From positions 1-9,120 of the forward strand of contig JAFDHR010000072.1 of the NCBI GenBank assembly GCA_019308645.1: a stretch of 9,120 nucleotides of DNA, given 5' to 3'. Position 1 is the first letter of the stretch. Every line of letters starts with the position of its first letter. Shown here one piece after another: positions 1-9,120 of the stretch. The stretch comes from Deltaproteobacteria bacterium. GTDB taxonomy: Bacteria > Desulfobacterota > DSM-4660 > Desulfatiglandales > B25-G16. The notes below the pieces were generated by a model. That model saw only the letters and a program-made list of their open reading frames with translations. It was not told where the DNA came from and made no database searches. The translations under genes were made by a program, and so were the position numbers.

Positions 1-112
1 ATTTTGCTATCATCGTAATTCTGTTGACTTAGCATTTTGTGGACGATATATTCTACAGATACTATCTGAATATTTTTTAGGCAAACAACGCTATTCTCGG
101 ACAAGCTCCTAG
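1..112 (+). CDS. 3' end of an unrecognised gene (partial)
   Basis: A reading frame is open from base 2 to a TAG at 110-112 and encodes about 36 residues, including SVDLAFCGRYILQILSEYF. It looks protein-like rather than random, but it is too short to assign. The frame of the HEPN gene that follows is already open from base 81 (after a TAG at 78-80), so the two frames overlap by about 30 bases. Either two translationally coupled genes meet here, or one gene has been split by a +1 frameshift just after the T-run at 73-78. No function is proposed. Confidence 0.4.
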   Translation, partial: FCYHRNSVDLAFCGRYILQILSEYFLGKQRYSRTSS

Positions 113-179
113 GGATACCAGAAATTATCTTAATGGCTTTATCGGCCATCTTAATAATATTGAATTTACGCGTAAGAAA

Positions 180-722
180 ATGGAGCGTTTATTCGGAAAA
201 AGGTTAATTTTCAAAAGAGATATAGAAATTATTTATGCCGGCTTATTTCTGGATTCTTTGACATATTTTGAGAACTTTATAGAAGAGTTATTCGTAAATT
301 TACTCATAGCTGATTCCGTTCATCCCTCCACTGTTGTCAAAGCGAAACACAAGTTTAATAGCACTAAGATTTGTAGAGAAATTATTTATGCCGGGGGGAA
401 ATATGTTGATTGGTTTCCATATGATTTTACTATAAAACGAGCAGAAATTTTCTTGAAAAATGGTAAGCCTTTCACCAATCTCGATAATCCTGATAGAAAG
501 ATACTTACTCAAATTTTCTATATCAGAAATGCAATAGCTCATAAAAGTAGGCATTCAATAAAAATGTTTAATAAACATGTTGTAGAAGGTTTGATTTTAA
601 TGCCGAGAGAAAAGACTCCATCTGGCTTTTTGAGAAGCCTTTTTGCCATGGCACCACCTCAAACAAGATATCAGTATTATATTTCACAGATAGTATATAT
701 GAGTAGGAAATTATATCATTAA
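180..722 (+). CDS. HEPN-domain protein, candidate RNase/toxin
   Basis: A 180-residue, mostly helical protein. Residues 116-121 read RNAIAH inside IFYIRNAIAHKS, which is the RX4-6H signature (here R-N-X3-H) of HEPN domains, many of which are metal-independent RNases in toxin-antitoxin, abortive-infection and CRISPR-associated proteins. A second helical stretch near residues 18-42 (IYAGLFLDSLTYFENFIEEL) fits the first HEPN helices, in the style of RiboL-PSP-HEPN proteins. The start is uncertain. The ATG at 180 has no clear Shine-Dalgarno sequence, and the frame stays open and protein-like back to 81 without ATG, GTG or TTG, so an ATT start or a frameshifted fusion with the upstream frame is possible. 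The gene ends just before a long attC-like repeat, so it was probably carried in as an integron cassette. HEPN assignment is good; RNase activity and target are inference. Confidence 0.72.
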   Translation: MERLFGKRLIFKRDIEIIYAGLFLDSLTYFENFIEELFVNLLIADSVHPSTVVKAKHKFNSTKICREIIYAGGKYVDWFPYDFTIKRAEIFLKNGKPFTNLDNPDRKILTQIFYIRNAIAHKSRHSIKMFNKHVVEGLILMPREKTPSGFLRSLFAMAPPQTRYQYYISQIVYMSRKLYH

Positions 723-734
723 ATTTTTGAGCAT

Positions 735-860
735 GCATAGTGGGGTGAACAGGGACGACAAACAACGTGGCAGTTTTTGAAAGGCCGTGCGCCGCATAAT
801 GATTAGAGGTATTTCAAAGTTGGTTGCTCCGCATTTTTGCCGCCCGTTACCCCGTTAGGT
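735..860 (+). other. attC-like recombination site 1 (imperfect)
   Basis: Two arms form a long imperfect inverted repeat. The left arm starts with GCATAGTGGGGTGAAC at 735 and the right arm ends with GTTACCCCGTTAGGT at 860. Pairing tolerates G-T wobbles and has extra unpaired bases on the left arm only, as in attC bottom-strand folds. The right core GTTAGGT (854-860) matches GTTRRRY perfectly. The left R'' box (GCATAGT) does not match RYYYAAC, so this site is degenerate or misplaced on that side. The crossover is predicted between 854 and 855. Confidence 0.55.
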
Positions 861-874
861 TGGGAGGAAAACAC

Positions 875-1189
875 ATGAGGAAATTTGCTGCGGCTCTTGC
901 CATTCTTTTGATCTTGGCCGGTTGCGCAACTGGCGAATTGATGTCACGTCTTCGCCCTGGAATGCCCAAACAAGAGGTAATTCAAATCTTGGGTAATCCA
1001 GACGGATATCAATCGCGCGGCGAGTATGAGGCACTCAAATATTCTCACCGCTTAGTAACCGGATGGGCATGGGACAGAGCAGATTACTTCGTAATTCTCA
1101 AAGGTGGCAAAACAGTCGAGTATGGCACTGGTGAGGTTCGCGTTAAGGATGTCAACAGTAATGTACTGTTCTTGATTCCCTTACGCTGA
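875..1189 (+). CDS. BamE/SmpA-OmlA-like small lipoprotein
   Basis: A 104-residue predicted lipoprotein. A charged N-terminus (MRK) leads into a hydrophobic stretch and the lipobox LAGC, with the lipidated cysteine at residue 17. After that, RLRPGMPKQEVIQILGNPDG and a tyrosine-containing strand (ALKYSH) match the fold shared by SmpA/OmlA (BamE) proteins: a 'G-M-(T/P)-K-x-x-V-x-x-(L/I)-L-G-x-P' helix turn followed by beta strands. It should sit in an envelope membrane. BamE itself assists outer-membrane protein assembly, but short proteins with this domain in cassettes need not do that job. The ATG at 875 is preferred over the in-frame ATG at 824 because GGGAGGA lies 7-13 bases upstream and the signal peptide begins there. 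It sits 20 bases inside the cassette, so its SD came with the cassette. Confidence 0.82.
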   Translation: MRKFAAALAILLILAGCATGELMSRLRPGMPKQEVIQILGNPDGYQSRGEYEALKYSHRLVTGWAWDRADYFVILKGGKTVEYGTGEVRVKDVNSNVLFLIPLR

Positions 1190-1224
1190 AGTACCTGCTT
1201 TGTACATAAATGGAGCTATCCATC

Positions 1225-1926
1225 ATGTTGGGCTTTTCCCCCGGAGTTCGCTTTATGCAAACACCTGATTTTGCCAATCGCCAACCGCTTGATATTATCT
1301 CTGAGAAGTTGTTCTTCGATTCGGCCGGCTTTGTCTATCGCGGACTCTCATGGTTGGACTACGCCAAGAGAACTGGCTCCGCCATCACACTTCAATATGC
1401 TGCGCTGGAGACCCGGCAGGCAATTGAACAAGTGCTGTTTGAGGAACTAGTCATGAGCGTGGGGGGACAACTTGACAGAAAGGAATACGAGAAGTGTAAA
1501 GGCAGTAGTACCAGGCTAGCGAAGATCATTCGAAAACTCAGTCCAGATTATCAACGGCTGGTCACCTTTACACAAACTATTTCATCGCTTATTCCGGGTA
1601 GTCCTACTCTTATAGAATGGGATCATAAAACACTACTTAGATACTGGGGGAGTGTTTCCACCTACCTTCATTGGGCTGGCGAGGCAAAAGAGACTTTTGA
1701 ATCGCCGCAGTGGTTTATAACAGGGCTGGAAACGGTCCAAAATGCTGCCACCTACCTTTGGGAGAAACTAAAAAGTGGCTATTCTGGGGTGATGCTGCCT
1801 GAGAAGATGCAGCCAGAGATTCAGCAGATTTGGGAGGATTTCAAGTCAGATAAAATCGACTTAGAAAGCGTTCGAAGAAGGGCGCTCATTGCTCTGCCAG
1901 TGCTTTCTATGAGGACAAGAACCTAA
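1225..1926 (+). CDS. Unrecognised cassette protein
   Basis: A protein of about 233 residues that I do not recognise. It appears soluble, with no signal peptide or membrane segment, and is rich in amphipathic helices, for example the stretch around LQYAALETRQAIEQVLFEEL and the C-terminal region EIQQIWEDFKSDKIDLESVRRRA. The helical YAALE-type segment vaguely recalls HEPN-like or AbiV-like proteins, but no RX4-6H motif is visible, so no such call is made. Starts at 1210, 1225 and 1255 are all possible. The ATG at 1225 has GGAG nine bases upstream, the ATG at 1255 has CGGAG eight bases upstream, and the ATG at 1210 has none. The stop TAA lies inside the attC R'' box ACCTAAC, typical of cassette genes. 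Only 35 bases separate it from the lipoprotein, with no attC between, so the two travel as one unit. Confidence 0.7.
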   Translation: MLGFSPGVRFMQTPDFANRQPLDIISEKLFFDSAGFVYRGLSWLDYAKRTGSAITLQYAALETRQAIEQVLFEELVMSVGGQLDRKEYEKCKGSSTRLAKIIRKLSPDYQRLVTFTQTISSLIPGSPTLIEWDHKTLLRYWGSVSTYLHWAGEAKETFESPQWFITGLETVQNAATYLWEKLKSGYSGVMLPEKMQPEIQQIWEDFKSDKIDLESVRRRALIALPVLSMRTRT

Positions 1927-1989
1927 CATCGGGCTGGACAAGGATGCGCGGAAAAGGACCCCGCGCACCTGTCAGCCCAGGCGTTCTTT
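1921..1989 (+). other. attC recombination site 2 (well formed)
   Basis: R'' is ACCTAAC (1921-1927), a perfect RYYYAAC. GGGCTGGACA (1931-1940) pairs with TGTCAGCCC (1970-1978), leaving one extra G on the left arm, the extrahelical base expected on an attC stem. TGCGCGG (1945-1951) pairs with CCGCGCA (1961-1967) to close the hairpin. The right core is G|TTCTTT (1983-1989), a hybrid whose last six bases belong to the next cassette. This is the clearest attC in the window. Confidence 0.9.
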
Positions 1990-2666
1990 AGGTTTTGAAT
2001 ATGAACAATACCGGCTTACATAAAGTGACTGACATCATTTCTATGATCGCTAAGATAATATTAATGATCAGGCCTGACCAAAAAAAATGGATAGTTAGGG
2101 TACTTGTTCTAAGCGGGTTAGCATTGATATCCCAACCTTTCTGGCAAGACATTTTAAACGCCTTCTTGGAACAAAAACTGAATTTTCATTTGCCACAGTC
2201 CATCTCAATAGGAGGATGGGTAATTTTATCATTTGGTATTATTTTCCACCTTTTAAACATCTATTTAGAGAAGCAAGCAAAGGAGGATGTAAATCCAAGT
2301 TTAAGTACAGAAGAGTCTTTTCCACCAACCAATTGGCTCACAGGAAAGGACGTAATGGAGGAATATAACTTAAGTGGATATGAGCTTTATCAGCATATAG
2401 AAGAAGGTTTACCTGTATATGATGAAAATACTGACATTTATTATAAAGATACAAAACCGATGGAACTAGAAGAGATGTGGTTCAGACTTGGATCGGAGAA
2501 AACTCAATTCATAGAATATGATCTTCTGAGCTTTTTATTTAAAAGAAAAGATATTGAAGATTATCTGAAAAAGTCTAACAAAAAACCTAACAAAACAAAT
2601 TAACACCGATTGCCAAAAGCCGCGCCGCTATGCTCTGCACCTTTTGGCATCCGGGTATTTGCGGCG
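1984..2666 (+). mobile_element. Integron gene cassette with one gene
   Basis: The unit lies between crossover points 1983/1984 and 2666/2667. Its front (GTTCTTT with the preceding G) matches the complement of its own R'' box AATTAAC (2598-2604) at five of seven positions, a weaker fit than in the neighbouring cassette. The coding region starts 17 bases after the front and ends with its TAA inside the R'' box, leaving almost no spare sequence. Confidence 0.75.
2001..2603 (+). CDS. Two-TM protein with excisionase-like C-terminal domain
   Basis: A 200-residue protein from the ATG at 2001 (AGG eight bases upstream; the in-frame TTG at 1995 is less likely). Two hydrophobic segments, near residues 29-50 (WIVRVLVLSGLALISQPF) and 67-88 (ISIGGWVILSFGIIFHLLNI), make a short membrane hairpin. 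The cytoplasmic remainder contains NWLTGKDVMEEYNLSGYELY followed by EEGLPVYDE, and then a C-terminal SFLFKRKDIEDYLKK. The order 'WLT..-helix-turn-helix-LPVY...-F+..DIE.YL' resembles excisionase/MerR-type winged-helix domains that occur in many uncharacterised bacterial proteins. Lysine- and asparagine-rich tail. Its role is unknown; a membrane-tethered sensor or regulator is only a guess. Confidence 0.72.
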   Translation: MNNTGLHKVTDIISMIAKIILMIRPDQKKWIVRVLVLSGLALISQPFWQDILNAFLEQKLNFHLPQSISIGGWVILSFGIIFHLLNIYLEKQAKEDVNPSLSTEESFPPTNWLTGKDVMEEYNLSGYELYQHIEEGLPVYDENTDIYYKDTKPMELEEMWFRLGSEKTQFIEYDLLSFLFKRKDIEDYLKKSNKKPNKTN

Positions 2667-2672
2667 TTACCG
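2598..2672 (+). other. attC recombination site 3
   Basis: TGCCAAAAG (2611-2619) pairs perfectly with CTTTTGGCA (2641-2649). ACCGAT (2605-2610) pairs with ATCCGGGT (2649-2656) with unpaired bases. TAACACC (2601-2607) can alternatively pair with GGCGTTA (2663-2669) with one mismatch. The R'' box is AATTAAC (2598-2604), six of seven to RYYYAAC, and contains the stop codon of the preceding gene. The right core is G|TTACCG (2666-2672), poor against GTTRRRY. The bases after the crossover belong to the hypE-tail repeat rather than to a recognisable cassette. Confidence 0.75.
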
Positions 2673-2807
2673 TGGCATGTCGAGGGGTACAGGTGTAAAT
2701 GAGGCTTAAAAAAATGCGGTAGGTATGAGAGAAGCAATGCACATCCCTTGCTCAGCAAATTCGGGGAAATTGCTCACCGCTTAAGGGCTCAAGAAGCCTG
2801 CGGCCTC
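2665..2807. repeat. 143-bp direct repeat, copy 1 (hypE tail)
   Basis: Matches 4939-5081 at a constant offset of 2274 with no gaps and 8 mismatches (positions 2676, 2692, 2693, 2776, 2779, 2785, 2801, 2803), about 94% identity. It carries the complement of the last codons of hypE (LLEPLSGEQFPRIC and the stop) plus 85 bases of hypE downstream flank. Identity starts at the G|TT core of an attC and ends inside the fused reverse-transcriptase frame. Confidence 0.97.
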
Positions 2808-3522
2808 GCCTCTCAAGCTCTTTATCAAGATCATCCAGAATGATATTAGCCAGTAGCGGGGAAAGTGGGCCGCCCTGAGGAACCCCTTTACGGGTCTTCC
2901 GTAGGCGGCCTCCTATCACCACACCGGCACGGAGGTACTTTCCGATCAGGCGCAATACCCGCTTATCATGGATACGCCGTGCAACCCGATGCATTAAAAC
3001 ATCATGGTTGACGGTGTCAAAAAACTTCGATAGATCCGTGTCCACGGCTATTCGGTATCCCTCACGGATATACTCACGTACCTTTTTGACAGCATCATGG
3101 GCCGATTTTCCAGGCCTGAATCCAAAACTGAACTCAGAGAAGGTTGGGTCAAATATCTCAACCAGCACCTGAGCTATGGCCTGTTGAATCAACCGGTCAA
3201 GTACCGTGGGAATTCCCAGAGGGCGGACTCCTCCGTCCGGTTTGGGTATTTCCACACGCAAGACCGGTAAGGGTTGATAACTTCCCTCTAAGAGGGATTT
3301 ACGGATATTTTCCCATCGGTCACGGATAAGGCCGGGGAACTCGGCTATTGATATTCCATCAACGCCAGAGGCTCCCTTATTTGCCTTCACCCGTTTCCAT
3401 GCCCTAAGCATGTTCTCCCTGGAAAGTATCCGCTCCAGTAGTTGATCATTTGGGTCGGGCGATTCAGTGACATGCCTCATGTTCATTCCTCCGTTCGGAT
3501 TCTTCATGTCATGAGAACTCAT
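2752..3522 (-). pseudogene. ltrA: Group II intron reverse transcriptase, truncated and fused to hypE tail
   Basis: Group II intron-encoded proteins reverse-transcribe and help splice their intron. This fragment holds the N-terminal part: SRENMLRAWKRVKANKGASG (RT0 region), VLRVEIPKPDGGVRPLGIPT (RT1), FSFGFRPGKSAHDAV (RT2), AVDTDLSKFFDTVNHD (RT3, with the first catalytic Asp) and KGVPQGGPLSPLLANIIL (RT4). It breaks off after ELERRG, exactly where an intact protein would continue HRF.RYADD, so the catalytic YADD, thumb and maturase domains are gone. The frame then runs into the hypE tail (RRLLEPLSGEQFPRIC) and stops there, giving a chimera of 256 residues. The start at 3522 has AAGGAG six bases upstream; an upstream ATG at 3561 is in frame but lacks this support. 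Inactive as a reverse transcriptase. Confidence 0.92.
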
Positions 3523-4149
3523 TGAGACTCCTTCCCTGTTCTGTGTTCGGCCCTTCACCATGTCCCGGGCATTACCCCGGGCATTGGGCTACTATGGCCT
3601 CGGCTGACTTCTGCCCAATCACCCTATGAGTTGCCTCATGGGGCGCTACTCTCAATTGCCTTACATCACCATCCTGCCTGCTTCCCTTTTTCGCTCGTTT
3701 TCAGGTGGAAGCCTACCTGGAAACGCCGGGACTTGTTCGCCGGTTGCCCCATCCGGCAGCTTTCACCAGACGGTGTGAAGACACCTTCGAGTCGCATGTT
3801 GAGCAGATCTCCCCGGATAAGAACGTGAACTTTCGCTACACAACCGCAGCATTTACCATATCTCCCGGACCCTGGGCTTCGTTATGTGGTGCTAACTTAC
3901 CCGGAGACTTGGCCTTATATGCTATTTCTGTCCGTCGGCTCATAGCTTTGCACTCCGGCTTCCTTCAGACCCTCCTTCACGGGAACGCCCTTGCCTTCGG
4001 CTAGTACTTTTGTTAATATATTCAACATATCAACCGGATTCACGTACAGGGGACTTCCACCCCATAAGCCCTTCGGCCTTGAGACGTGTCGACGAGCTCA
4101 CGTCGAGTCGCTCAGGGCCGAAAGGTTCACGCCCATGCCGGGCGTACAC
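2808..4149 (-). mobile_element. Group II intron remnant (5' portion)
   Basis: A truncated group II intron on the minus strand, so antisense to the cassette genes. The predicted 5' end is the complement of 4149, where the minus strand reads GTGTACGCCC, close to the GUGYG consensus. The element comprises the 5' ribozyme part and the first two thirds of the reverse transcriptase. The 3' half, including ribozyme domains V and VI, is missing, replaced by the hypE-tail repeat. It cannot splice or move by itself. The intron class was not determined. Group IIC introns are known to insert in attC sites opposite to cassette genes, which this orientation would suit. Confidence 0.82.
3523..4149 (-). ncRNA. 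5' ribozyme portion of the group II intron
   Basis: About 630 bases without a credible gene, rich in hairpins as expected of domain I and following domains. Plus-strand positions: GCCC/GGGC at 4131-4143 next to the predicted 5' splice site; CCTTCGGCC (4070-4078) against GGCCGAAAGG (4116-4125); GGGG/CCCC at 4049-4063; CCCTATGAG (3622-3630) against CTCATGGGG (3635-3643). Short open frames here on either strand are spurious. Confidence 0.7.
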
Positions 4150-4216
4150 CATTGGGTTAACCAGACGCCGAGAAACGTGGGCATTTTAGCTGAAATATCG
4201 GGGCGGGGCTGATTAC
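4150..4216. other. Upstream exon of the intron; possible degenerate attC
   Basis: This is what the intron was inserted next to. GGGTTAACCAGACGCC (from 4154) and GGGGCTGATTACCC (ending 4218) are imperfect inverted arms, and GGTTAAC (4155-4161) is one mismatch from RYYYAAC. It may be the remaining part of an attC invaded by the intron, but the right core would be GATTACC rather than GTT, so the call is tentative. Confidence 0.3.
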
Positions 4217-4285
4217 CCAAAACGTTCGACCTCGACGTGGTAAACGCTAGCGCGTTCACCACGCGGGTCAACTCTGACGTTATGG
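4217..4285 (+). other. attC recombination site 4
   Basis: TTCGACC (4225-4231) pairs with GGTCAA (4266-4271), leaving one extra C, the typical extrahelical base. CGTGGT (4236-4241) pairs with ACCACG (4258-4263), and ACGC (4244-4247) with GCGT (4252-4255), around a 4-base loop. AACG (4221-4224) pairs with CGTT (4278-4281) at the core. The right core G|TTATGG (4279-4285) supplies the front of the BrnTA cassette. The R'' box CCAAAAC is imperfect. Confidence 0.78.
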
Positions 4286-4294
4286 AAATAAAGA

Positions 4295-4331
4295 CCATAT
4301 AGAAAGCCATATAGATATATTGACATATATC
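4295..4331. promoter_or_regulatory. Candidate BrnA operator
   Basis: Two direct repeats CCATATAG (4295-4302 and 4307-4314) lie 12 bases apart, followed by a perfect palindrome, GATATAT (4314-4320), TGAC, ATATATC (4325-4331), that overlaps the -35 box. Ribbon-helix-helix antitoxins bind such short repeated half-sites and repress their own operon; that BrnA binds here is inference. Confidence 0.5.
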
Positions 4332-4348
4332 GTGAACTGCTGTATCTT
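4320..4348 (+). promoter_or_regulatory. Sigma-70-type promoter of brnTA
   Basis: TTGACA at 4320-4325, a 17-base spacer and TATCTT at 4343-4348. Transcription would start about base 4355, which is the A of the brnT ATG, so the toxin message would be leaderless. No Shine-Dalgarno sequence is needed or seen for brnT. Confidence 0.65.
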
Positions 4349-4354
4349 TATCGT

Positions 4355-4648
4355 ATGACGAAACGATCTGATTTTGAGTGGGATTTTTCCAAAGACAAAC
4401 TGAATCAAGAGAAACACGGTGTCTCCTTTGCTTCAGCGCAGCTTGCTTTTCTGGATTACAATCGTGTCATTTTGGAAGACCTGGAACACAGCGATGATGA
4501 AAAGCGGTATTATTGTCTTGGTAGAGTCGTTGGTGGAATTATGACCGTAAGATTTACCTATCGAAAAAACAAAATCAGAATTTTCGGCGCCGGATATTGG
4601 CGGAAAGGGAAAAAGATATATGAAAGAGAAAATAAAATACACGGATGA
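4355..4648 (+). CDS. brnT: BrnT family toxin
   Basis: A 97-residue protein with the BrnT layout: FEWDFSKDKLNQEKHGVSFA at residues 7-26 (family pattern 'F.WD..K...N..KHGVSFEEA'), then a D..H...E+R segment (LEDLEHSDDEKRYYCLGRV) and the strand pair MTVRFTYRKNKIRIFGAGYW. BrnT toxins have a RelE-like fold and act as ribonucleases that inhibit growth until bound by BrnA. The usual 'RIISAR+A' segment reads RIFGAGYWRK here and the C-terminus is lengthened by a basic tail, so it diverges near the expected active face. It precedes and overlaps brnA by 29 bases, the standard BrnTA order. Confidence 0.88.
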   Translation: MTKRSDFEWDFSKDKLNQEKHGVSFASAQLAFLDYNRVILEDLEHSDDEKRYYCLGRVVGGIMTVRFTYRKNKIRIFGAGYWRKGKKIYERENKIHG

Positions 4649-4850
4649 GCCTATTGGAAGGGTGAGGGTTATTTCCGACTTCCTTCCCTCACCTGAAGAG
4701 CTGGCCCTGAAGGACGAAACCCTTAAAGTTACAATTGCTCTCAGCAGAACCAGCCTAGAATTTTTTAAAAAAGAGGCAAAAAAATATAATACTCCGTATC
4801 AGAAAATGATTCGCAGGCTCTTGGATGAATACGCCGCCCATCAATCCTAA
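4620..4850 (+). CDS. brnA: BrnA-like ribbon-helix-helix antitoxin
   Basis: A 76-residue protein. The N-terminal half (residues 1-34, with IGRVRVISDFLPSPEEL) is probably the extended toxin-binding part. Residues 35-73 hold a ribbon-helix-helix DNA-binding unit: strand LKVTIALS, helix RTSLEFFKKEAKKYN, turn TPYQ and helix KMIRRLLDEYAAH, similar to CopG/BrnA antitoxins. It would neutralise BrnT and repress the shared promoter. The ATG at 4620 lies inside the end of brnT, with purine-rich GGAAAGGGAAAAAG just upstream serving as ribosome-binding site, so translation is coupled to that of the toxin. Confidence 0.85.
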   Translation: MKEKIKYTDEPIGRVRVISDFLPSPEELALKDETLKVTIALSRTSLEFFKKEAKKYNTPYQKMIRRLLDEYAAHQS

Positions 4851-4855
4851 ACTGT

Positions 4856-4946
4856 CCATAACCATAGCATGAACGCTGACTGGGGTTTTGCTGGCGCTCA
4901 ACTCCAGTAGGTTATGCCCAGGTTATCATCTACGTTGACGTTACCG
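4856..4946 (+). other. attC recombination site 5, last before hypE
   Basis: R'' is CCATAAC (4856-4862). CATAGCATGAAC (4863-4874) pairs with GTTATCATCTACG (4922-4934) with an extra unpaired base on each side. A central hairpin pairs ACTGGGGTT (4879-4887) with AACTCCAGT (4900-4908) through one G-T wobble. The right core is G|TTACCG (4940-4946), identical to that of attC 3, and is followed by hypE flank. The folding is less regular than in attC 2 and 4. Confidence 0.65.
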
Positions 4947-5081
4947 TGGTATGTCGAGGGGTACAAATGTAAATGAGGCTTAAAAAAATGCGGTAGGTAT
5001 GAGAGAAGCAATGCACATCCCTTGCTCAGCAAATTCGGGGAAATTGCTCGCCACTTAAAGGCTCAAGAAGCCTGTGACCTC
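4939..5081. repeat. 143-bp direct repeat, copy 2 (native hypE tail)
   Basis: The counterpart of 2665-2807, covering the hypE 3' end and 85 bases of downstream flank up to the attC core. It is the native copy, since it continues into intact hypE. The flank has no convincing hairpin terminator: only a 4-bp GCAA/TTGC stem, then a distant run of T on the transcribed strand. Confidence 0.97.
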
Positions 5082-6036
5082 CTATCCTGGTCTTGAGAAG
5101 AACCTTTCCTGGATTTTCATTTGTAACTTTACCGATTATTACTGATTCCTCACCCAGAGGATCTGCTTTCATAGCCTCAAGGACACTTTCAGTCTTTTCC
5201 TGTGGTATAAAGGCAACGAGCTTTCCTTCATTGGCCAGATAGAAAGGATCAAATCCGAGCAGATCACATACACCCCGCACCTCTTCTCTCACTACAATCT
5301 TTTCCTCTTCAACAATAACCCCCACTTTCGAGGAATTTGCTATCTCCCAGAGGACGGTGGCAAGCCCTCCCCTGGTCGGATCCCTTAAGACATGGATCTC
5401 TTTGCATGCGTTGATCATCTTCTGAACAAGCCCGTTAAGGGGAGCACAGTCGCTTTTTATCTCCCCCTTTAATGAAAACTCTCCACGCGCGAGGAGCACG
5501 CCTATCTCGTGGTCTCCAATGGAGCCATTGATGATAATGTTATCACCCGGCATTGCATTGGAGCCGCTTATATCAATCCCTTCAGGAACAATCCCAACTC
5601 CAGAAGTGGTAATAAAAAGCCCCTGTGCAGCACCATGCTCCACAACCTTTGTATCTCCTGCAACTACCATTACCCCTGATTGGCGAGCAACTTTCTTTAT
5701 CGATGAAAGAACCCTCTCAAGCTCTTCTGTAGAAAAACCTTCTTCCAGGATAAAAGAGGTTGAAATCCCTAAGGGCCTTGAGCCTACCATTGCGAGATCA
5801 TTGACAGTTCCACAGATTGAAAGTCTTCCGATGTCACCTCCCGGGAAAAAGAGGGGCTTCACCACGTAGGAATCAGTAGTAAAGGCAAGCCGTGATCTCT
5901 CGGTAGGGATTACAGCGCTATCATCCAGGGAGGTAAGAATTTTATTTTCGAGAAAGGGGAGGAATAGTTCCTCGATGAGATCATGACTTAATTTTCCGCC
6001 TGCCCCGTGAGCAAGCAGAATCTTTTTTTCTTTCAT
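5026..6036 (-). CDS. hypE: HypE, carbamoyl dehydratase of [NiFe]-hydrogenase maturation
   Basis: HypE receives a carbamoyl group from HypF on its C-terminal cysteine and dehydrates it with ATP to a thiocyanate, which donates cyanide to the iron held by HypC/HypD. Full length at 336 residues. Visible PurM-like ATP-binding features are HGAGG (10-14), DDSAV (38-42), FTTDSYVVKPLFFPGGDIGR (52-71) and SICGTVNDLAMVG (73-85); RDPTRGGLATVLWEIA follows in the second domain. The protein ends in PRIC, the essential C-terminal Cys-carrying tail of the family. The ATG overlaps the hypD stop as ATGA (6033-6036), with GAGG upstream for ribosome binding. Last gene of the operon. Its final 14 codons and flank recur at 2665-2807. 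Confidence 0.97.
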   Translation of the reverse strand: MKEKKILLAHGAGGKLSHDLIEELFLPFLENKILTSLDDSAVIPTERSRLAFTTDSYVVKPLFFPGGDIGRLSICGTVNDLAMVGSRPLGISTSFILEEGFSTEELERVLSSIKKVARQSGVMVVAGDTKVVEHGAAQGLFITTSGVGIVPEGIDISGSNAMPGDNIIINGSIGDHEIGVLLARGEFSLKGEIKSDCAPLNGLVQKMINACKEIHVLRDPTRGGLATVLWEIANSSKVGVIVEEEKIVVREEVRGVCDLLGFDPFYLANEGKLVAFIPQEKTESVLEAMKADPLGEESVIIGKVTNENPGKVLLKTRIGGHRLLEPLSGEQFPRIC

Positions 6037-7121
6037 TCGAAGTCCTCATATTTGTGAAAAGCAGCACAACTTCCCTCTGACGATACCATGCAGGGCCCAA
6101 CAGGGTCTTCAGGGGTACACCGTGTATTAAATAAGGGGCAATCCGGGGGTTTCTTAATCCCCTGTAGGATCTCACCACATAGACAATCCGGAGGATCAGC
6201 CTTTTCCTCATAGGGAATGTCAAATGCGAAAGCTGCATCCATTTCTCTAAATTCTTCCCTTAACATAAGGCCGCTTTCCGGTATCATGCCAAGACCCCTC
6301 CAGTAGGCGTCGAAAGGCTCAAAGACCTCTTCCATGACCTCTTGGGCCAGGCGATTTCCCTCATCTTTTACCGCCCTTGTGTACTGAATCTCTATCTCTG
6401 ATCTCCCTTCGGTCTTCTGGCGCATGAGCATATATATTCCCTCCAGGATATCGAGGGCTTCAAAGCCAGTGATTACACCCATAATAGAAAATTCATGTGC
6501 AATAAAGAAATAGGGAGTTTTCCCAATTATCACGCTTACATGGCCAGGTAGAATAAAGCCGTCTATCTTTACATTTTGTGAGGAAAGCAAGACCTTTATA
6601 GCCGGTGGTATGAGCCTTTGGGAGGAGAGTATATACAAATTAGTGATTGCCTTTCTTTTTGCCTCTTTGACAGCGGCAGCAATGGCACCAGCAGTAGTTT
6701 CAAAGCCTACTGCAAAAAAAATCACCCTCCTTTGAGGCTCTCTCATTGCAATTTCAAGGGGATCCAAAGGGGAGGTTATTATCCTGATGTCTCTGCCCAT
6801 CGCCCGTTCCTGATTAAGGGATGAGGAGGTTCCCGGAACCCTCATCAGGTCGCCAAATGTCACAAGAGTTACGTTGGGTAGGCGTGCCAGGGCAATGGCC
6901 CTATCGATCTCTCCTACAGGCGTTACACATACGGGACAACCTGGACCGGATATAAGCTCTATTTCTTTGGGCAGGAGTGATCGTATGCCCGATCGGAAGA
7001 TAGAAACGGTATGGGTACCACACACCTCCATAAATCGGAGGTGTCCATTCCTAAGATTTACGATCTCTTTGAGGATGGAGGATACATCCCTAATTTCATC
7101 TATCTTCTTCCGCTGATTCAC
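6033..7121 (-). CDS. hypD: HypD, Fe-S scaffold for Fe(CN)2CO assembly
   Basis: HypD carries a [4Fe-4S] cluster and, with HypC, holds the iron on which the two cyanides and the CO are assembled. Full length at 362 residues. Conserved features are MEVCGTHT (31-38, Cys34), GPGCPVCVTP (59-68, Cys62 and Cys65 as the thiol pair), FFAVGFETTA in the middle domain, LPGHVSVIIG, and the C-terminal cysteine-rich part (PPDCLCGEI, PPDCPLF, VGPCMVSSEGSCAAF) that binds the cluster. The start is GTG at 7121, preceded by AGAGG about five bases upstream and lying inside the end of hypC (26-base overlap), so the two partners are translationally coupled. Confidence 0.97.
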   Translation of the reverse strand: MNQRKKIDEIRDVSSILKEIVNLRNGHLRFMEVCGTHTVSIFRSGIRSLLPKEIELISGPGCPVCVTPVGEIDRAIALARLPNVTLVTFGDLMRVPGTSSSLNQERAMGRDIRIITSPLDPLEIAMREPQRRVIFFAVGFETTAGAIAAAVKEAKRKAITNLYILSSQRLIPPAIKVLLSSQNVKIDGFILPGHVSVIIGKTPYFFIAHEFSIMGVITGFEALDILEGIYMLMRQKTEGRSEIEIQYTRAVKDEGNRLAQEVMEEVFEPFDAYWRGLGMIPESGLMLREEFREMDAAFAFDIPYEEKADPPDCLCGEILQGIKKPPDCPLFNTRCTPEDPVGPCMVSSEGSCAAFHKYEDFE

Positions 7122-7338
7122 TGTAACCTCTCTCTATTTCTTCAAAAAGGGCTAATGTCTCGAGGGCTTCCTCCTTTTCAAGTTTCTGGATGGCAAAACC
7201 AACATGCACAAGCACATAGTCCCCTTCCATAACACCGGAGCATATCAGAAGACTTACTTCCCTTCTAATGCCGCCAAAGTCAACCTCGGCAATATCCTCT
7301 TTTATGAATACAACCTTACCAGGTACACCTAAGCACAT
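7096..7338 (-). CDS. hypC: HypC, hydrogenase maturation chaperone
   Basis: HypC binds HypD and the immature large subunit and shuttles the Fe(CN)2CO unit. An 80-residue protein of normal size beginning MCLGVPGKVV: after Met removal the N-terminal Cys2 becomes the iron/HypD contact. GDYVLVHVGFAIQKL (39-53, His45) is the other family hallmark, and the C-terminus is acidic. The ATG at 7338 is chosen over an in-frame ATG 27 bases upstream because AAGGAG sits seven bases before it and only this start exposes Cys2. It follows hypF by 35 bases. Confidence 0.96.
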   Translation of the reverse strand: MCLGVPGKVVFIKEDIAEVDFGGIRREVSLLICSGVMEGDYVLVHVGFAIQKLEKEEALETLALFEEIERGYSESAEEDR

Positions 7339-7373
7339 TGGTAATCTCCTTGTAAGTAATCGCAAAAATAATA

Positions 7374-9120
7374 TTACGAATCTTGTTTAGGGGTAATAAG
7401 GCCTTTATCAGTCACCTCTCCTTGAAGATGAAGTGCATAAAAGGCCTGTCCAAGGGATATACATCCGTCGTTTGGAGGGATCTTTTGATGAATATGAACC
7501 CTGAAACCATCCTCATTGAGGATATCCCATGCCTTTTCGAGAAGGAATGTATTTTGAAAGACCCCGCCACTCAGGAATACATCCGATAAACCGGTTTTCT
7601 CTCTTACCTGTTTAGCCATCCGGGATATAACCCGTGCTATGGAATTGTGAAAACGAGTAGAAATAATAGAGGGACTCTTTTTCAGTATTATATCCTTTAC
7701 AATTGCCTCAATAATGGGATCGGGATCGATGATAAGACTTCCCCTTTGCTCAAAAATTTCAAAAGGATACTCGCCTGACTCTCTCTCCTTCGCCATCTGT
7801 TCAAGTTCCACTGCTGCCTGGCCTTCGTAGTTGACTGACCGCCTCACATTCAGAAGAGCGCTCACTGCATCGAAGAGCCGTCCCATACTGGAGCACAAGG
7901 GTGAGTTTATCCGAGCCTTCACAGCCAATTGTATTTGCAACCATCGCTCAAGATCAAGCTCCTTTACGAAAGGTATGTGAAGCCCTTTAAAATCTCCATA
8001 GATCCTTTCAAGGTAGGCTGCTGCCATCCTCCATGGTTCCCATACGGCTTTATCACCCCCGGGCAGGGGGATTTGTTTTAAATGCCCTAAGCGTGTGTAT
8101 CCTTGAGCACTCACCTCCAGAAATTCCCCGCCCCAGACTGTGCCATCTTCTCCATACCCTGTTCCATCCAACACTACTGCAAGCGCAGGCCCAACGCTCC
8201 CATATTCTGCCATGCAGCTTAGTGCATGAGCAAAATGATGCTGAATCCCTATTTTGGGTATGTCAAGTCCCATTGCATACCTGGTGGAAAAATAGTCAGG
8301 ATGCAGGTCATGTACGACAAGCTCGGGCTCTATCTGAAACAGTTGTTTGAAGAGCTCTATACCTTGTTCAAAGGAGCTCATTGTCTCAAAGTTCTCCATG
8401 TCCCCTATATGCTGGCTCATAAAGGCATAATCACCTTTTGTGAGGCAAAACGTGTTCTTTAGATCTGCCCCACAGGCCAGGATATGTTTTCCTTCTTTAT
8501 GTAATTTGATGGGAAATGGTGCAAAACCTCGCGCCCTCCGTAAAAATGTTACCGTTTCCTTTAATGGCTTAATCACCGAGTCATCGCATCGTGTATGGAT
8601 TTCTCTATCATGCACCAAAAAGAAATCTGCAATATTGCGAAGCCGGGAAAAGGCCTCTGTATTTTTGAAAACGATGGGCTCATCGCTCACATTTCCACTT
8701 GTCATAACAAGGGCATCAACTCCTTCACCAAAAAAAAGATAGTGAAGTGGTGTATAAGGAAGCATCACCCCAAGAGTCTTCTGAAAAGGAGCAACGGATG
8801 GGGCTATCTTTGCACCTATTTTCCTCGGAAGAATGACAATCGGCCTCTCCCTGCTGCTAAGGAGATTGCTTGATATAACATCTACAATGCATAGACCTTT
8901 AACGACCTCCAAGTCCCTGCACATAAGGGCAAATGGCTTGTCCTCTCTATATTTTCTCGCCCTCAGCCTTGCGACAACCTCCTCCTTAGTCGCATCACAG
9001 GCAAGATGAAAACCCCCAAGGCCTTTTATAGCTACAATCTTACCCCTCTTAAGTAGAGCAATTGTCTCTTCTACAGGATCATGGGTTGTGACCATTTTAC
9101 CTGAGTTAGTAAAGAGCTGT
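7374..9120 (-). CDS. hypF: HypF carbamoyltransferase (N-terminus beyond the window)
   Basis: HypF uses carbamoyl phosphate and ATP to make carbamoyl-adenylate and passes the carbamoyl group to HypE. About 581 residues are visible; the frame stays open to the right edge, so the ATG at 9095 is internal and the acylphosphatase and zinc-finger domains lie outside. Counted from that Met: YrdC-like domain with KIVAIKGLGGFHLACDA (19-35), LPYTPLHYLFF (112-122) and VMTSGNVSDEP (130-140); linker RRARGFAPFPI (186-196); Kae1-like domain with HHFAHALS (286-293), VVLDGTGYGEDGTVWGGEF (307-325), SGGVFQN (509-515) and PPNDGCISLGQA (540-551). These include the metal-binding histidines and nucleotide loops expected for an active enzyme. 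First of the four hyp genes in transcription order. Confidence 0.96.
   Translation of the reverse strand, partial: QLFTNSGKMVTTHDPVEETIALLKRGKIVAIKGLGGFHLACDATKEEVVARLRARKYREDKPFALMCRDLEVVKGLCIVDVISSNLLSSRERPIVILPRKIGAKIAPSVAPFQKTLGVMLPYTPLHYLFFGEGVDALVMTSGNVSDEPIVFKNTEAFSRLRNIADFFLVHDREIHTRCDDSVIKPLKETVTFLRRARGFAPFPIKLHKEGKHILACGADLKNTFCLTKGDYAFMSQHIGDMENFETMSSFEQGIELFKQLFQIEPELVVHDLHPDYFSTRYAMGLDIPKIGIQHHFAHALSCMAEYGSVGPALAVVLDGTGYGEDGTVWGGEFLEVSAQGYTRLGHLKQIPLPGGDKAVWEPWRMAAAYLERIYGDFKGLHIPFVKELDLERWLQIQLAVKARINSPLCSSMGRLFDAVSALLNVRRSVNYEGQAAVELEQMAKERESGEYPFEIFEQRGSLIIDPDPIIEAIVKDIILKKSPSIISTRFHNSIARVISRMAKQVREKTGLSDVFLSGGVFQNTFLLEKAWDILNEDGFRVHIHQKIPPNDGCISLGQAFYALHLQGEVTDKGLITPKQDS

Follow-up and report, generated by a model that had tools for sequence, protein, structure and literature searches.

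A second, broken hypE end in a cassette-array-like locus of a Deltaproteobacteria bacterium, most likely a scar of a join between two related strains' versions

Contig JAFDHR010000072.1 of assembly GCA_019308645.1, from a Deltaproteobacteria bacterium (Desulfobacterota; Desulfatiglandales), was analyzed over positions 1 to 9,120 (hereafter, the window). In addition to an intact copy of the hydrogenase gene hypE, the window carries a second, broken hypE end within a 143-nt direct repeat, fused in frame, at a short microhomology, to the reverse transcriptase (RT) gene of a group IIC-attC intron whose 5′ end lies against an attC-like hairpin; an attC-like site next to hypE is present in a second genome, G013, as well. 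The broken hypE end is most likely a neat but essentially ordinary scar, left where versions of the locus from two related strains were joined. The explanation favored here, with moderate confidence, is a single unequal join, mediated by microhomology, of two diverged forms of a boundary between a cassette array and hypE.

Results

A repeat search of the window returned a single long direct repeat of 143 nt, with copies at 2665-2807 and 4939-5081 (spacing 2274, 94%). Base-by-base comparison gave 135 of 143 identical positions, with eight mismatches, all of them transitions, and no gaps; in a blastn comparison of the window with itself, the repeat scored E = 6e-60, ruling out a chance origin. 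The longest identical run between the copies is 82 bp (2694-2775). Similarity begins at the same CGTTACCG in both copies, at 2665 and 4939, and ends in both inside coding sequence. On extent, identity and edges, the comparison bears out an earlier note on this DNA. That note described the repeat as a 143-bp hypE tail, which holds for only part of it: the last hypE codons are present and make up about two fifths of its length, but 87 bp are a non-coding spacer downstream of hypE (2665-2751 and 4939-5025), and over its final 8 bp (2800-2807), copy 1 matches hypE and the intron RT about equally well. Read on the minus strand, the repeat consists of the last hypE codons (...RLLEPLSGEQFPRIC), a stop codon (2752-2754 and 5026-5028), and then the spacer. 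The simplest account of the mismatches at 2801 and 2803 is that they are RT bases, which would leave a repeat proper of probably ~135 bp with six mismatches. The features at and around the junction are:

2665..2807, minus strand: repeat copy 1, made up of the 87-bp spacer and a fragment of the hypE tail (repeat search, base comparison, blastn)
2752..2799, minus strand: codons from hypE, with their stop, in copy 1 (RLLEPLSGEQFPRIC-stop), in frame with the RT (translation, copy comparison)
2797..2805, minus strand: junction microhomology GGCCGCAGG between intron RT and hypE (RT genes L054 and L055; hypE here and in L001)
2752-3561, minus strand: RT open reading frame (ORF), cut before YADD (Pfam RVT_1)
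2800..4147, minus strand: remaining 5′ part of a group IIC-attC intron that has lost its 3′ half (Rfam, Pfam RVT_1, TIGR04416, alignment to plasmid introns)
4939..5081, minus strand: copy 2 of the repeat, running on into intact hypE (repeat search, base comparison, blastn)
5026..6036, minus strand: intact hypE, 336 aa (TIGR02124, 455.7 bits, cut-off 251.6)

Copy 1 is joined in frame to the N-terminal part of the 3′-truncated RT, and the break point falls within ~9 bp of near-identity between the two genes, with GGYCRCAGG shared. At this point, RT genes read GGCCACAGG in L054 (blastn 89% over 740 bp) and GGCCGCAGG in L055, while hypE reads GGTCACAGG in the window (5071-5079) and GGCCACAGG in L001, a relative whose HypE is 88% identical to that of the window. 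A HypE-like tail (LLEPL or PRIC stretch) occurs in none of the 120 RT homologues listed, the best of 7,999 scored, and the RT runs on into ...RYADD in the five loci in which that motif was found (L005, L006, L007, L054, and L055), which together rule out copy 1 as a natural RT end. A search for a YADD-type motif in L056 gave no match.

Upstream of the junction, the group II intron RNA and its RT lineage are recognizable from minus-strand matches to RF02001 (3822-3986) and RF01998 (3550-3645), from the RVT_1 domain, and from DNA alignment to the intron on plasmid NZ_CP031121, which sits between qacEdelta1 and catB3. The latter is an ltrA intron that we take to belong to group IIC-attC, and the assignment of the window intron to this class is by Rfam, RVT_1, and DNA alignment. 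The intron 5′ end lies at about 4147, and its first bases align without gaps to three plasmid introns. On this 5′ side, the intron is inserted in the R″ box of an attC-like site, on the minus strand and antisense to the cassettes, with its end at ~4147 against the attC arm; the 3′ exon has been lost. Against TIGR04416, the window RT scores 288.9 bits (below the cut-off of 300) and covers the profile from position 2 to 207 of 353. In P0001, the nearest full-length RT (94% identical, 459 aa), the protein continues beyond residue 253 to YADD at 259; the break in the window RT follows the counterpart of residue 253 of 459. Because the RT ends before YADD, the window RT has no GIIM maturase match (P0001 has one), and Rfam returned no match 3′ of the RT in the window, the intron is a remnant. 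Incomplete retrohoming ordinarily keeps the 3′ end of an intron and loses the 5′ end; with the 5′ end intact here, it was rejected as the cause of the truncation.

Two further observations concern the intron. A short palindromic repeat lies in its 5′ domain (4080-4122) and is not in the introns of L005, L006, and L007; similar copies are dispersed in relatives (four matches in G010, two in G014, and three in G007). By eye, the related intron in genome G076 (L056) also begins against an attC-like arm.

The cassette side of the locus was delineated by bottom-strand folding, with attC calls made from fold z-scores against 200 shuffles. The features nearest the repeat copies are:

2598..2672, plus strand: attC-like site closing cassette 3; R″ AATTAAC at 2598-2604, possible core GTTACCG at 2666-2672 (bottom-strand fold)
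4148..4285, plus strand: attC-like site whose R″ box holds the intron; R′ GTTATGG at 4279-4285 (bottom-strand fold)
4355..4648, plus strand: BrnT toxin ORF (PF04365, E 4.5e-20)
4620..4850, plus strand: BrnA-like antitoxin ORF (PF14384, E 1.2e-4, 22.9 bits, below the Pfam cut-off of 26.1; no NCBIfam match)
4856..4946, plus strand: attC-like site of the BrnTA cassette; R″ CCATAAC at 4856-4862, R′ at 4922-4928 or 4940-4946 (likeness to the G013 site)

Three clear hairpins were found, at 1919-1994 (z -4.66), at 2596-2672 (a long bottom-strand hairpin with a non-canonical core, z -3.37, 1 of 200 shuffles as good), and at 4151-4286 (bottom strand, z -3.94, none of 200 as good), compared with the two or more attC sites expected of an integron array or of a cluster of attC sites lacking an integrase (CALIN). 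The fold at 745-860 does not stand out from its shuffles (z -0.17). From the R′ box of the intron-bearing site and the TTGT/T target of IIC-attC introns described in PMC7923331, the native R″ box of that site is inferred to have read CCATAAC. Scanned against Pfam and NCBIfam at E 0.001, four cassette ORFs (180-722, 824-1189, 1210-1926, and 1995-2603) gave no matches. The one at 824-1189 has a lipoprotein-like start (by eye) and is separated by a gap of 20 bp from the ORF starting at 1210, so one attC may be missing between them.

The earlier note placed the start of both copies at an attC crossover point. This is plausible, as CGTTACCG is compatible with a G|TT crossover, but it falls short of proof: the predicted hairpin arms end at 2661 (3 bp before CGTTACCG of copy 1) and at 4926 (12 bp before that of copy 2), GTTACCG deviates from the GTTRRRY core, and the end of the BrnTA attC is ambiguous. 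Judged by eye from its likeness to the G013 site, the BrnTA attC may originally have ended at GTTATCA (4922-4928), 18 bp earlier; the MAFFT alternative for the two sites is a 17-bp insertion before CGTTA. The 17 bp at 4923-4939, which separate the G013-like attC arm from the core where copy 2 starts, are perhaps the end of a lost cassette's attC. The 2,274-bp block delimited by the two copy starts is bounded by attC-like sites as well as by direct repeats, and therefore homologous recombination and integrase could each, in principle, remove it; neither an empty site nor a circle corresponding to it was seen.

Past the junction, the hypE tails of the two copies show three differences among 15 third positions (95% interval, 4-48%) and none among 30 first and second positions (Fisher p 0.032, omitting the junction codon; 4/17 versus 0/34, p 0.0095, when that codon is counted). 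All three differences in hypE codons are synonymous, and the spacers differ at 3 of 87 positions. Third-position-only differences are the pattern expected of two working genes. For comparison, third-position divergence between the window and the nearest genome, G004, is 53/363 in hypD, 9/81 in hypC, and 67/574 in hypF (11-15%). The divergence between the copies thus fits an origin in separate strains or species, on counts too small for proof.

Related genomes were considered to determine how hypE is flanked elsewhere. Next to hypE in G013 (L043) lie, in order, an attC-like site similar to that of the BrnTA cassette and two toxin-antitoxin pairs (MazE-like with PIN, and PIN with Phd/YefM); array features at hypE are therefore seen in two lineages, the window and G013. 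An exact pattern for the BrnTA-type attC matched once in G013 and in none of six other genomes, and the G013 spacer resembles that of the window for only ~22-26 bp past the hypE stop. An integron integrase scoring above cut-off is located on another contig of G013, in two overlapping frames (L044:3758-4749, C233), while the other six of the seven relatives and all 14 control genomes gave matches below cut-off only. The split frame probably reflects inactivation or a sequencing error. In the six other relatives (L001, L002, L011, L012, L013, and L068), alignments break off at the hypE stop or a few bases from it; no array was seen in the DNA beyond, as inspected by eye over ~1.1 kb in L001, 3.1 kb in L002, 300 bp in L011 and L068, and 90 bp in L012 and L013. 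With the window intron placed in an attC-like R″ box, and with toxin-antitoxin ORFs and an attC-like site flanking hypE in G013, the locus looks like a boundary between an integron array and hypE. In both the window (BrnTA, 4355-4850) and G013 (PIN pairs, L043:252-1645), the ORFs nearest hypE on the array side form a toxin-antitoxin pair, which is perhaps array-stabilizing. On the other side of hypE, the window continues with hypD and hypC, both recognized by Pfam, and then hypF, recognized by its Pfam HypF_C domains.

A second hypE tail was sought more widely. A DNA query of hypE plus spacer matched 28 of 85 genomes of the order, several of them with two pieces from different parts of hypE; the tail end plus spacer matched 19 of the 85, once each; and the repeat alone matched 3 of 395 genomes drawn from the phylum, once each and in the hypE tail only. 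Among the matches listed for these 85 and 395 genomes, no genome showed two hypE tails. The check proposed in the earlier note, for related genomes with one tail directly adjoined by cassette 3 or the BrnTA cassette, came back empty in the genomes searched, and the idea that the 2.27-kb block moves as a unit gained no support from it. An exact search for the spacer in viral contigs gave no matches. In the closest genome, G004, contig C205 ends 41 bp into hypE, so the state of the tail cannot be read there, and G004 has no match to positions 1-5025 of the window. Among the papers listed in literature searches, titles and the beginnings of abstracts held nothing on an integron at hypE (matches to the word "hype" may be, e.g., "hypersaline").

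Discussion

The locus would represent the 3′ end of a chromosomal integron, or of an integrase-less cassette cluster, abutting hypE. Two versions of this boundary would have existed: in version A, cassette 3 was followed by its attC, the spacer, and hypE; in version B, a cassette X had an attC bearing the group IIC-attC intron, followed by the BrnTA cassette, its attC, the spacer, and hypE. An illegitimate exchange at GGYCRCAGG would have joined the hypE end of version A to the middle of the RT in version B, leaving a hypE stub of ~50 bp with its spacer beside cassette 3, deleting the 3′ half of the intron together with the body of cassette X, and retaining one intact hypE. Such a single exchange would yield all of the junctions except the 17 bp before copy 2. 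We infer that versions A and B came from different lineages and that a single event of this kind joined them. The suggestion in the earlier note that two array/hypE boundaries are joined here, probably from two diverged lineages, is upheld: the intron fragment, the BrnTA ORFs, and three clear attC-like hairpins were all confirmed, and in G013, too, hypE is flanked by an attC-like site and toxin-antitoxin ORFs.

Several results weigh against this explanation or limit it. None of the genomes searched yielded version A or version B, and array features at hypE were seen in only one of seven relatives with a readable hypE end, the others having been inspected in part. A Pfam scan of 17 window ORFs found no integrase. 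The fold of the BrnTA site (4853-4946) is only weakly better than its shuffles (z -1.6, 11 of 200 as good), and the hairpin of the G013 attC-like site is not clearly above them (z -0.65). The break lies in a microhomology, although not in the best match between the two genes: among 11-base windows of hypE and the L054 RT, the junction window agrees at only 8 of 11 positions, and 24 pairs elsewhere agree at 10 or more of 11. The polarity of the differences is mixed; at three sites, the copy 1 base is present in 4, 4, and 3 of six relatives and the copy 2 base in 0, 2, and 3 (hypE-end rows L003 and L004 were dropped, their tails being unalignable). Finally, the numbers are small, with three synonymous and 3/87 spacer changes, and leave room for an old duplication in situ.

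An unlikely alternative, raised in the earlier note, is that a circular molecule carrying the hypE tail, intron fragment, and BrnTA cassette integrated by homologous recombination at the hypE tail. Direct repeats around the 2,274-bp block are the product expected of such an integration, and the copies differ as though from two lineages. However, the RT-hypE microhomology join would still have to occur first, making the circle an extra step that is possible but unneeded, since this single join explains the junctions; moreover, no replication or transfer gene was recognized among the nine block ORFs scanned with Pfam, and no such circle was seen.

There is also only a slim chance that the duplication arose within one strain, with integrase excising the terminal cassettes on one sister chromosome, unequal recombination between sisters following, and the copies diverging later. 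No second strain would then be necessary, and at two of the three polarity sites the intact copy has the state rarer among the six relatives (0/6 and 2/6), as if it had changed since. Under this scheme, however, copy 1 would be free of selection, which is at odds with the confinement of its differences to third positions (3/15 versus 0/30), and a divergence of 4% demands an old event.

A chimera introduced by assembly or amplification, in a metagenome or single-cell assembly, is improbable. Microhomology junctions are typical of amplification chimeras, the 82-bp exact run could mislead a short-k assembly, and no second example was found in the genomes searched. Nevertheless, assemblers need far more than the ~9-bp RT-hypE overlap to join two sequences, and the fusion is in frame, for which the chance is one in three. 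Integration at a gene end usually leaves an intact gene end on one side and a displaced tail on the other, as here, but a reading of the block as an integrative element targeting the hypE 3′ end, with the repeats as attachment sites, is very hard to sustain, given that no recombinase was recognized among the nine block ORFs scanned with Pfam and that the repeat is long, 4-6% diverged, and ends on its right in the RT/hypE microhomology.

If the join between versions A and B is accepted, the far end of an integron has been remodeled by ordinary illegitimate recombination, in addition to integrase, placing host DNA between attC sites. A more far-reaching reading, which we consider improbable, is that of a cassette birth, in which a host hypE end and spacer, joined by microhomology to an attC-borne intron, form a 2,274-bp pseudo-cassette movable by integrase. 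IIC-attC introns have been proposed by Leon and Roy to help form cassettes (as cited in PMC7923331); if the reading is true, the pseudo-cassette reaches the proposed outcome by a different route. Should the block prove excisable, it would be a concrete case for the open question of cassette origin; otherwise, it is a local scar.

Desulfobacterota are listed among integron carriers in "The Natural History of Integrons" (PMC8618304). Like a chromosomal integron or CALIN array, the window combines attC-like hairpins and same-strand short ORFs with a toxin-antitoxin cassette and a IIC-attC intron in the opposite orientation; unlike one, it has no integrase seen, several non-canonical attC cores, and a hypE tail duplicated within the array. 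With the group IIC-attC introns of integrons, such as the ltrA intron of NZ_CP031121, the window intron shares its 5′ end, orientation, R″ position, and a related RT, but it lacks the 3′ half, is fused to hypE codons, and has an extra palindromic repeat in its 5′ domain. Another truncated IIC-attC intron in a metagenomic cassette array, UHB.F1 from a soda lake, is described in PMC7923331 as 5′ truncated at a contig edge, whereas in the window intron the truncation is at the 3′ end, where a host gene is fused to it. Finally, the Delta-attI-type cassettes presented in PMC12901181 are also cassette-like units with a piece of the array edge; in them, this piece is attI, with recombination put to the test, whereas in the window it is the hypE-side flank.

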